Origin: Yeosuana aromativorans
GTDB taxonomy: Bacteria > Bacteroidota > Bacteroidia > Flavobacteriales > Flavobacteriaceae
Direction of reading: 5' to 3'
Assembly: GCF_014646655.1 (NCBI RefSeq)
Contig: NZ_BMNR01000005.1
Coordinates: 280,511-344,510, forward strand
DNA length: 64,000 bases
Below, piece by piece: positions 23,534 to 25,096 of the stretch (position 1 is the first letter of the stretch; each line of letters starts with the position of its first letter). The translations under genes were made by a program, and so were the position numbers. Under the pieces are notes generated by a model that saw nothing but the letters and a program-made list of their open reading frames with translations, made no database searches and was not told the origin of the DNA.

Positions 23534-24208
23534 CTATTCTTTTACTATAATAATGGTGGCTTTAACTCCTGTTGCCAAATTCCATCTGTTTGAAGATACT
23601 AAGTTGCCCATGTCATCAACTACTTGGAACTCTGCCGTATTTGGCCCAGATTCTCCTTGGTTTAAGGCTACAAAATCTATTTTATTGAATCCTTTTTGCA
23701 AGTTGAGTTTTATGCCTTTAAACCCGCCAGTTAAATAGACACTGGATTGAATTACGTCATCATTTAATCGAACCTGAATTAAATCGCCATCAACTTCGCC
23801 AAAATCACGATAGACAACATTTACAAATTTAGAATTGCTTTTAAAATCACCGAAATACTGATCGGTTGTACTGCCATTACGTTGTTCAACCTCTTGTGGA
23901 GATAGTTTTGTGCTTTCTAAATTTTTATTGACTTGCTTTTCATACAATTCTCCTGGATTGCCAAAGGTTTCTCCAAACATAGAGAATTCCTTTTTTGGCT
24001 CGTTTACATTTGAATTGGACTTAGGAATGGTCATTCCGTTAAATGAGTTGTTTTGGTTTGGTTTTGAAGGAAGCAGTTTAAACGTATCGGCGGAATCTTT
24101 CTTGCTTTCTACTGCTGGAATAGATCTGGATTTATTTTGACTATCAATTTGTGCATGAGCTGCTATTGAAATCAAGATAAATATATAGTATATAAAATTA
24201 AATTTCAT
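23534..24208 (-). CDS. Secreted protein of unknown function
   Basis: 224 residues with a signal peptide (about 1-19, FIYYIFILISIAAHAQ). Residues 20-120 are low complexity, rich in Asn, Ser and Lys. Residues 125-224 look like a compact beta domain (VVYRDFGEVDGDLIQVRLND; INLQKGFNKIDFVALNQGESGPNTAEFQVVDD is the region), reminiscent of secreted accessory proteins in flavobacteria. It is transcribed away from the small-peptide array starting 294 bases further on; TATCTTTG on the minus strand (24275-24268) is a possible -7 box. Confidence 0.75.
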   Translation of the reverse strand: MKFNFIYYIFILISIAAHAQIDSQNKSRSIPAVESKKDSADTFKLLPSKPNQNNSFNGMTIPKSNSNVNEPKKEFSMFGETFGNPGELYEKQVNKNLESTKLSPQEVEQRNGSTTDQYFGDFKSNSKFVNVVYRDFGEVDGDLIQVRLNDDVIQSSVYLTGGFKGIKLNLQKGFNKIDFVALNQGESGPNTAEFQVVDDMGNLVSSNRWNLATGVKATIIIVKE

Positions 24209-24501
24209 TTCCTTTAAAAATTACATAAACGATTCTAAGGCCAATTTATTTTTAATGGTTTATTGACCAAAGATATTTTATTATCACAAGTAGTTCTATA
24301 CTCTGTACATGTTTTTTGATTCATTTAACAAAAACCGTTCCTATTATTTGTTGTTATTGGTGATTTGCTAACTCCTCTCCTATTTGTTTCATCATAAATA
24401 TGTTAAAAATTGTTAATTTATTATTATGTTATACATAGTACTGTAACAAATTTAATTCTTGGTCGTCTATAAAGTATAAAACAATCAAAAACATAGAAAC
24501 C
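24209..24501. other. Intergenic region upstream of the small-peptide array
   Basis: A/T-rich, divergent between the secreted protein gene and the array. No open frame of note and no exact TTG-N17-23-TAnnTTTG promoter on the plus strand; the array must be transcribed from here, so its promoter is non-consensus or I missed it. The first CAATCAAAAA element (24482-24491) lies at its end. Confidence 0.5.
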
Positions 24502-24588
24502 ATGAGAACATTAGACAGTAACAAATTAACAGAATCATTAAAAAATTCTAAAAGCCATCTTTGGAATTGTAAAAGACGCTTTAGATAA
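24502..24588 (+). CDS. Small basic peptide, array copy 1 (28 aa)
   Basis: 28 codons, ATG to TAA. Begins MRTLDSNKL and ends SHLWNCKRRFR. Shares 15 of 28 residues with copy 3; at seven of these 15 positions (T3, S6, N7, L13, S18, N22, R26) the codons differ only synonymously, which argues for selection on the protein. It is the most divergent of the three 28-residue copies and the only one with a cysteine. No signal peptide or membrane segment. Family unknown to me. Upstream element CAATCAAAAA ends ten bases before the ATG. Confidence 0.75.
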   Translation: MRTLDSNKLTESLKNSKSHLWNCKRRFR

Positions 24589-24631
24589 GTATCACAAAAA
24601 AATAATCATCAATCAAAAAAAACAAACAATC

Positions 24632-24718
24632 ATGAAAACTTTAAACAGCAATGAATTATCAGGAACTTTAAGTACATCTAAAAGTTACAATTGGAACACA
24701 AAAAGACGTTACAGATAA
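24632..24718 (+). CDS. Small basic peptide, array copy 2 (28 aa)
   Basis: 28 codons. Begins MKTLNSNELSGTLS and ends SYNWNTKRRYR. 23 of 28 residues match copy 3. Its ATG is exactly 130 bases after that of copy 1, with a 43-base spacer. Strongly basic C-terminus with an invariant Trp-Asn. The CAATCAAAAA element is at 24610-24619. Confidence 0.8.
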   Translation: MKTLNSNELSGTLSTSKSYNWNTKRRYR

Positions 24719-24761
24719 CTTTTTAATTACAAATTATTCAACAATCAAAAAATAAACTATT

Positions 24762-24848
24762 ATGAGAACTTTAAACAGCAATGAATTTTCAGGAACCTTG
24801 AGTCCTGCTAAAAGTTACAATTGGAACAGCAAAAGACGTTACAGATAA
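24762..24848 (+). CDS. Small basic peptide, array copy 3 (28 aa)
   Basis: 28 codons. Begins MRTLNSNEFSGTLS and ends SYNWNSKRRYR. Again exactly 130 bases after copy 2 with a 43-base spacer. Against copy 2 there are two synonymous (T12, L13) and five replacement changes (positions 2, 9, 15, 16, 23), all outside the conserved N-terminal box and the W-N-x-K-R-R-Y-R tail. The CAATCAAAAA element is at 24742-24751, ten bases before the ATG. Confidence 0.8.
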   Translation: MRTLNSNEFSGTLSPAKSYNWNSKRRYR

Positions 24849-24883
24849 GTAGCGTCTTTAAAACCATCATCAATCAAAAAACA

Positions 24884-25018
24884 ATGAGAACAATCAACAA
24901 CATATCAAAACGAATAAACCGCTTAACTACAGAAAATTTTTCTGTGAACAAACGAATCATAAACTTCAATAACTCCATTGAAGCTCTATGGGTAGGATCT
25001 AAACGGTATGCTCATTAA
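24884..25018 (+). CDS. Small basic peptide related to the array (44 aa)
   Basis: 44 codons from ATG at 24884; a longer TTG-initiated frame would overlap copy 3 and lacks support. It shares the MRT start and a tail LWVGSKRYAH that echoes W-N-S-K-R-R-Y of the shorter copies. Middle part is rich in Asn, Arg and Ile. The same CAATCAAAAA element precedes it (24871-24880), only three bases before the ATG. It is the last gene before a strong terminator and may be a longer family member. Confidence 0.7.
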   Translation: MRTINNISKRINRLTTENFSVNKRIINFNNSIEALWVGSKRYAH

Positions 25019-25063
25019 CCTTTAACTTAAAACTTACAAGAACATGCAGCTAAAAAATTAATC

Positions 25064-25096
25064 GAGTCTAGAAACCAATTTCTAGACTTTTTTTAT
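25064..25096 (+). terminator. Strong intrinsic terminator after the small-peptide array
   Basis: GTCTAGAAA (25066-25074) pairs perfectly with TTTCTAGAC (25079-25087) across the loop CCAA, followed by a run of seven T. It closes the array transcript and overlaps the 3' end of the convergent gene. Confidence 0.85.

Follow-up and report, generated by a model that had tools for sequence, protein, structure and literature searches.

What do four tiny genes standing in tandem do in a flavobacterium, and what turns them on? The question is raised by an array in Yeosuana aromativorans, which was analyzed within a 64-kb window (the whole stretch of 64,000 nucleotides, to which the positions below refer). 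The ORF coordinates agree with the arrangement described in an earlier note on this DNA: three 28-codon genes start 130 bp apart, with two spacers of 43 bases each between them, and the spacer between the third copy and the subsequent 44-codon ORF is 35 bases long (Table 1). At the DNA level, the array is a direct-repeat family (D1) of three 102-nt copies with spacings of 130 and 130. We coined the name S28 for the family of 28-residue basic microproteins and T44 for the 44-residue partner. The strong terminator thought to close the array was recovered as an intrinsic-terminator-like hairpin; the terminator scan found two sites, one per strand at the same place, vs 0.2 expected. The three S28 genes and the T44 gene likely belong to one predicted operon. 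In the window, Rfam yielded no family at the gathering score, no tRNA was found, and a scan for E. coli-type sigma-70 promoters detected 8 sites (6.5 expected), none of them on the plus strand. A spacer motif, ATCATCAATCAAAAAA, or its close forms, is found ahead of the ORFs (24599–24620, 24731–24752 and 24860–24881), and a similar motif precedes at least one other gene of the same genome (L216); perhaps, it is a general translation-start feature.

Table 1. Features of the array and its control region (window positions)
Feature	Position	Strand	Basis
Direct repeat TGTTAA-N4-TGTTAA	24401..24416	+	read in sequence
Palindromic operator-like site TATTATGTTATACATAGTA, likely PadR site (putative)	24422..24440	.	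upstream comparison
-35 box TGTAAC, ECF-type promoter	24442..24447	+	GTAAC-N16-CGTC in 93/100 upstreams
-10 box CGTCTA, ECF-type promoter	24464..24469	+	upstream comparison
AGTATA box by the expected transcription start	24473..24478	+	in 61 of the 93 upstreams with ECF boxes
S28 copy 1, 28 aa, MRTLDSNKLTESLKNSKSHLWNCKRRFR	24502..24588	+	ORF list, conservation
S28 copy 2, 28 aa	24632..24718	+	ORF list, conservation
S28 copy 3, 28 aa	24762..24848	+	ORF list, conservation
Predicted hairpin; 5' arm = KRRY codons of copy 3, stop codon in loop	24832..24859	+	-14.1 kcal/mol (L001)
T44, 44 aa, ends WVGSKRYAH	24884..25018	+	ORF; 66 proteins at E <= 0.001, itself included
Intrinsic-terminator-like hairpin, operon end	25064..25089	+	terminator scan

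S28 is a conserved protein family of Flavobacteriaceae

A search with a single query (E <= 0.05) identifies S28 matches in 116 of 397 Flavobacteriaceae genomes and 77 of 237 genera, so that the ORFs of the array cannot be attributed to chance. Among the matches listed, 27 or 28 of the 28 S28 residues are covered, and the matching ORFs are often side by side. At E <= 0.01, the S28 profile finds matches in 12 of 296 genomes of the order and 8 of 296 genomes of the phylum, samples that were drawn evenly and include members of Flavobacteriaceae; outside the family, these two samples contain no full-span match (positions 1–28). The best outside match, G922 (E 1.1e-4, positions 3–26), was taken for chance because its frame lacks both a methionine start and the ECF boxes described below. 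Inside the family, the partial match L041 is a real short form of 19 residues, and short S28 forms are therefore under-counted. Internally shortened proteins (19–20 residues), in which the MRTLN start and the WNxKRR tail are both retained, are also found at L053 9448–9510 and L028 1407.

The claim that these genes code for proteins and are under selection at the protein level is borne out. Copies 1 and 3 of the array differ in codon at 7 of their 15 identical residues, exactly as counted before, and for 154 coding sequences the pooled dN is 0.278 and dS 1.031 (dN/dS 0.27). Thus, both developments that would have spoken against the claim, namely, a lack of homologues with a conserved reading frame and a dN/dS near 1, were checked and the opposite was found. 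Excluding the hairpin arm discussed below, dN is 0.325 and dS 1.061; among close pairs (1049 pairs with 80–97% identity, which are not independent), pN/pS is 0.305. In an alignment of 155 distinct coding sequences (142 distinct proteins) from the fetched loci, W21, N22 and R25 are invariant, with the qualification that the rows were collected through their similarity to queries containing W, which favors W and like residues, and the invariance of M1 is set by row selection, a methionine having been required at this position. Synonymous codon changes are observed at T3, N22, R26 and Y27, and the N-terminal half of the protein is conserved as well.

As the earlier note supposed, the peptides belong to no described family as far as the searches go: all four lack a Pfam or NCBIfam match at E <= 1, and in PHROGs, with copy 3 and T44 as queries, there is none for copy 3 and the best E for T44 is 0.042. 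No description of an S28 or T44 family was found in the titles and abstract openings of the best-ranked open-licence PubMed Central matches, and the motifs MRTL and KRRYR do not occur in the main text, as available, of a peptide survey of marine biofilm bacteria (PMC11683478).

The control region: an ECF-type promoter and a palindrome shared with a padR operon

The control region is a new part of this system that the earlier note did not cover. Upstream of the S28 genes, the pattern GTAAC-N16-CGTC is found in 93 of 100 distinct sequences, compared to 0 of 100 for the reversed control, and the spacer is 16 nt long in 93 of 93, where 14–18 were allowed (the 100 rows differ in the last 60 nt and include related genomes, and the L028 row begins inside its array). 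We take the TGTAAC and CGTC boxes to resemble ECF-type promoters. In the remaining 7 of 100 upstreams, the boxes are missing within 170 nt: in L093 they are further up, in L113 CGTC is replaced by AGTC, and L046, L068, L082, L096 and L123 lack them.

In the Y. aromativorans genome, TGTAAC-N16-CGTC has 12 exact sites, and the reversed control has 7. Among the 12 are those at the array, a solo S28 gene, a gene for a DUF4870 protein and a gene for an ECF sigma factor. At the DUF4870 gene (L174 4096–4497, G000:C7:59100), which is paralogous to the gene that opens the padR operon discussed below, the upstream form is TGTAAC-N16-CGTCTATTAAGTATAA. The ECF sigma gene is followed by genes for a 158-residue protein without a Pfam match and for a DUF4252 protein. 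Of 46 genomes, 45 have this DUF4252-linked ECF sigma factor, and the same promoter form precedes its gene in 29 of 30 fetched upstreams, so that the gene looks autoregulated. This factor likely, although not certainly, transcribes the array; the reservation comes from another of the 20 sigma-region-2 loci of this genome, L217, which has a version with a 17-nt spacer, TGTAAC-N17-CGTC, nearby. The DUF4252-linked ECF gene also occurs in genomes that show no S28.

Immediately upstream of the promoter lies a palindrome, TAYTWTG-N5-CAWAGTA, which is exact in 73 of 100 S28 upstreams (reversed control, 0 of 100); a slightly wider pattern, with up to 2 mismatches, recovers 87 of 100. In all 72 upstreams that contain both exact forms, the palindrome ends 2 nt before GTAAC. 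Within the Y. aromativorans genome, the combination of the palindrome and the -35 box (up to 3 mismatches) has no site other than the array and the solo S28 gene (reversed control, 0). The palindrome itself is shared with an operon of the order DUF4870 – PadR – PspC/LiaI-LiaF-TM/Toast-rack (Pfam matches PF09685, PF03551, and PF04024 + PF22571 + PF22744), followed in Y. aromativorans by a DUF2807 gene. Each of the 32 genomes tried has the PadR gene, including genomes that show no S28, and all 30 padR loci carry the palindrome upstream with at most 1 mismatch to the wider pattern (reversed control, 2 of 30). A GTTAA direct repeat stands ahead of the exact palindrome in 65 of 100 S28 upstreams (78 of 100 when 2 mismatches in the palindrome are allowed) and ahead of the palindrome in 26 of 30 padR loci, its period differing by about one base between the two sets.

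A similar palindrome, TACTTTG-N5-CAAAGTA, precedes another type of operon (L159–L161, L163 and L169–L171; GTTAA repeat in 0 of 7), so that a different regulator could bind. Most of these operons encode a winged-helix-like regulator and some a CreD-like protein, as named by reading. PadR-PspC-Toastrack systems, which combine HAAS-PadR with PspC-LiaI-LiaF-TM-Toastrack proteins, are described in the available text of PMC11237479 as envelope-stress signalling. Given that both the palindrome and the GTTAA repeat are common to the array and the padR operon, the array most likely belongs to this PadR/PspC envelope-stress response; we infer its control by PadR and by the ECF factor from the DNA.

T44, the second small gene and the predicted stop-codon hairpin

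The 44-codon gene is located where the earlier note had placed it, but its description as a relative of the 28-codon genes has less support than the note implies: a profile-profile comparison of T44 and S28 gives P = 0.043 and a probability of 1.2%, and the likeness comes down to a common W..KRY tail and the MRT/MKT start. The proteins that match T44, where named at all, are hypothetical or uncharacterized, the exceptions being stray labels, e.g., ‘Ribosomal protein L32’ or ‘Transposase’. For 32 coding sequences, dN is 0.400 and dS 1.607. The N-terminal 27 residues are predicted to be amphipathic (mean z 1.26 in 37 sequences, 26 of them above 1), and the AlphaFold2 model (mean pLDDT 70) consists of two helices; this model has zero matches in PDB at E <= 10. 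No T44 gene was found in plasmids.

The pairing of S28 with a second small gene is recurrent and is absent from the earlier note. Among 99 loci, 91 have a second small ORF after the last S28, which matches the T44 profile in 60 (some with low scores, from 13 bits) and is another small ORF in 31, and the other 8 have none; some same-genome loci drawn from two collections are included both here and in the 85 synteny loci considered below. The second ORFs other than T44 include acidic forms of 22–25 residues (MKALSKIIDTSHSxNDDLETLR type) and basic forms of 44–45 residues. By a plain ORF rule, a second ORF is present in 89 of 99 loci vs 33 of 99 after shuffling, which implies that some of the 31, e.g., L071, may be due to chance.

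The earlier note also does not mention a predicted hairpin in which the KRRY codons of the last S28 pair with the bases just past the stop codon. Among the 28-residue copies, to which this count is restricted (137 of 158), at least 10 of 12 pairs can form in 35 of the 55 that stand last before T44, in 5 of the 53 non-last ones and in 0 of the 29 that stand last where T44 was not detected. In the same order, the mean folding energies for all 158 copies are -9.6, -3.1 and -3.9 kcal/mol; by a looser measure (a minimum of 6 downstream pairs among the last 18 bases), the same groups give 47 of 60, 25 of 59 and 16 of 39, a smaller contrast. The arms of a given hairpin pair better with each other than with swapped arms (9.53 vs 9.02). 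In the strong-hairpin set, which includes only 7 distinct arms, the gain is small (11.2 vs 11.03) and 0 of 1000 swaps reached the value of the own arms. Non-last copies show the same gain (6.92 vs 6.56), so that relatedness explains a part of the swapped-arm result. We infer that the hairpin might be a device that lowers the level of T44 relative to S28.

Genomic context and orphan S28 copies

Comparison of 85 longer loci indicates that the array mostly keeps its neighborhood, given that homologues of the neighbors are found in most of these loci. A homologue of the divergent lipoprotein-like gene is present in 66 of the 85, and in 44 loci its start lies no more than 700 nt upstream of the array; the other kept neighbors are a dehydrogenase (55), a helicase (55) and another lipoprotein (52). 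In the window, the divergent gene occupies positions 23534–24208 and encodes a 224-residue lipoprotein-like protein without a Pfam match. The neighbors of the array that are kept in other loci were read as an aldo-keto reductase, lipoproteins, a helicase, a dehydrogenase and an oxygenase, in agreement with the previous statement that no RiPP enzyme is adjacent.

Solo S28 genes are embedded in different operons. In Y. aromativorans, such a gene (L130 2913–7726; G000:C2, about 87900–92740) has the same palindrome and ECF promoter, is followed by a 42-residue ORF and heads an operon for HlyD-type, ABC ATPase and MacB/FtsX proteins. L123, from a second genus, repeats this order of S28 and exporter genes next to a gene for a sigma-54 activator and lacks the ECF boxes; these two genera account for the only MacA/MacB-type exporters next to S28, in 2 of 85 loci. 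In three genera (L041, L068 and L090), S28, once in the 19-residue form, is part of a TetR – DUF1348 – S28 – alpha/beta hydrolase run, with CMD preceding the hydrolase in two of them. The genes directly after the solo S28 of L082 encode a histidine kinase and a response regulator (Pfam run), and in L096, a similar pair comes after S28 with one gene between (by reading); neither locus has the ECF promoter. In both L082 and L096, the solo S28 stands after a HemB-like gene, by reading. The recurrence of S28 in stress- or export-type operons favors a role as a trans-acting helper.

Functional prediction

The mean charge of S28 is +5.7 and that of T44 is +6.1, and no signal peptide is apparent in S28 by eye. 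Tandem copies raise dosage, from which S28 would be expected to work stoichiometrically rather than as an enzyme; taken with the basic charge, the lack of a signal peptide by eye and the regulon, this dosage suggests a binder that acts stoichiometrically in the cytoplasm. The scenario that we favor over RNA-binding, leader-ORF and RiPP roles is that S28 and T44 are membrane-proximal effectors of the envelope-stress response that are made in bulk and likely bind an anionic partner at the inner membrane, a proposal that we consider to fall a little short of probable. Under this scenario, the array would be switched on by envelope stress: PadR would repress it until the PspC protein senses stress, and the DUF4252-linked ECF sigma factor would transcribe it. 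The hairpin would lower T44 relative to S28, acting either as a leaky terminator or through an mRNA end held open by terminating ribosomes. S28 and T44, likely produced in bulk under envelope stress, would act inside the cell by binding their anionic partner, and the predicted amphipathic N-terminal helix of T44 could hold this protein at the membrane. That S28 has a membrane target is a guess drawn from the regulon. Counting against the membrane-effector reading are the acidic second ORFs of 22–25 residues, the absence of a predicted amphipathic helix in S28 (mean z -0.76, 141 sequences), the presence of PadR and the ECF factor in genomes where no S28 was found, and the five orphans without the promoter.

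The same charges, along with the invariant W and the Arg-rich C-terminus of S28 and its low mean hydrophobicity (0.06), would also fit stress-induced microproteins that bind RNA or the ribosome, in which case the promoter sets only the timing; the orphan copies in unlike operons suit such a general cytoplasmic target. The replacement of T44 by acidic partners in a part of the loci speaks against this possibility, as does the lack of similarity of S28 and T44 to any Pfam or NCBIfam family and, for T44, of a match between its profile and solved structures better than E 0.76. On balance, we regard RNA or ribosome binding as rather unlikely.

Alternatively, S28 might be a cis-acting leader ORF, the translation of which to the C-terminus and stop codon governs the hairpin and hence the next gene, be it T44, an exporter or a CMD protein. 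The hairpin that spans the stop codon where the last S28 precedes T44, in which both arms show some changes, the C-terminal conservation that adjoins the stop and the solo S28 genes at the head of two exporter operons are all in line with this mechanism. However, the N-terminal half of S28 is conserved too, the rarity of the strong hairpin among non-last copies (5 of 53) is accompanied by a dN/dS of about 0.30 (dN 0.289, dS 0.974; 60 coding sequences), and no last copy without a detected T44 has it; we consider the leader ORF an unlikely explanation.

Quite unlikely, in our assessment, is the possibility that S28 and T44 are feedback ligands of PadR, PspC or the ECF/anti-sigma pair that tune their own stress response: the palindrome common to the array and padR and the promoter form common to the array and the ECF gene could be accounted for in this way, but the tandem copies suggest a bulk need, both regulators are present in genomes where S28 was not detected, and there are orphan S28 copies without the promoter. 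A precursor of an exported modified or antimicrobial peptide, roles that had been entertained for these tandem, basic, short peptides and to which the MacA/MacB-type exporter after solo S28 in two genera might be added, gains no support and is very improbable, given that no signal peptide is seen by eye, the GG pair looked for as a double-glycine leader site is absent from 141 S28 proteins, no modification enzyme is found among the conserved neighbors (by reading) or the orphan neighbors (Pfam), the exporter accompanies S28 in so few loci, and a variable core peptide would not be expected to show such strong residue conservation between genera.

Extending the membrane-proximal stress role, we tentatively put forward, as possible, a broader picture: S28 and T44 would be dedicated effectors of an uncharacterized flavobacterial envelope-stress response in which a PadR/PspC sensor and an ECF sigma factor are integrated at one promoter, copy number and the stop-codon hairpin fix a high S28:T44 ratio, and the microprotein has been repeatedly recruited into exporter and detoxification operons. 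Regardless of its function, S28 is a conserved family of 28 residues that has no entry in the libraries searched and is preceded by a promoter with a box spacing that is constant in 93 of 93 upstreams. Through the putative links of this promoter, two poorly understood regulators, PadR/PspC and the DUF4252-linked ECF sigma factor, would be connected to a concrete output, which makes the role of the response directly testable. The array also offers a natural example in which microprotein genes in tandem are combined with a predicted hairpin at the stop codon.

Comparison with known systems

By description only, S28 is reminiscent of Sra and RMF, small basic ribosome-associated stress proteins, in being short, basic and stress-linked; it differs from them in being shorter still and tandemly repeated. 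The likeness to the HAAS-PadR/PspC systems consists in the palindrome-sharing operon, which encodes PadR and a PspC/LiaI-LiaF-TM/Toast-rack protein; S28 and T44 lie outside this operon, and the available text of PMC11237479 names no microprotein targets. The PG_0214 to PG_0216 run of Porphyromonas gingivalis, which, according to the accessible part of PMC10101095, is 8- to 11-fold up in ‘HPS’ (the second condition) in strain FLL361, resembles the run found here in gene order, on which the comparison is based: an ECF sigma factor, a small protein without a Pfam match and a DUF4252 protein. The link to small peptides is absent from that part of PMC10101095. Finally, the SM6 ECF motif of Flavobacterium psychrophilum, which the accessible part of PMC9723704 ties to T9SS genes and low nutrients, in distinction from the array, contains a CGT box, so that SM6 and the S28 array have in common CGT in the -10 box of a flavobacterial ECF-type promoter.
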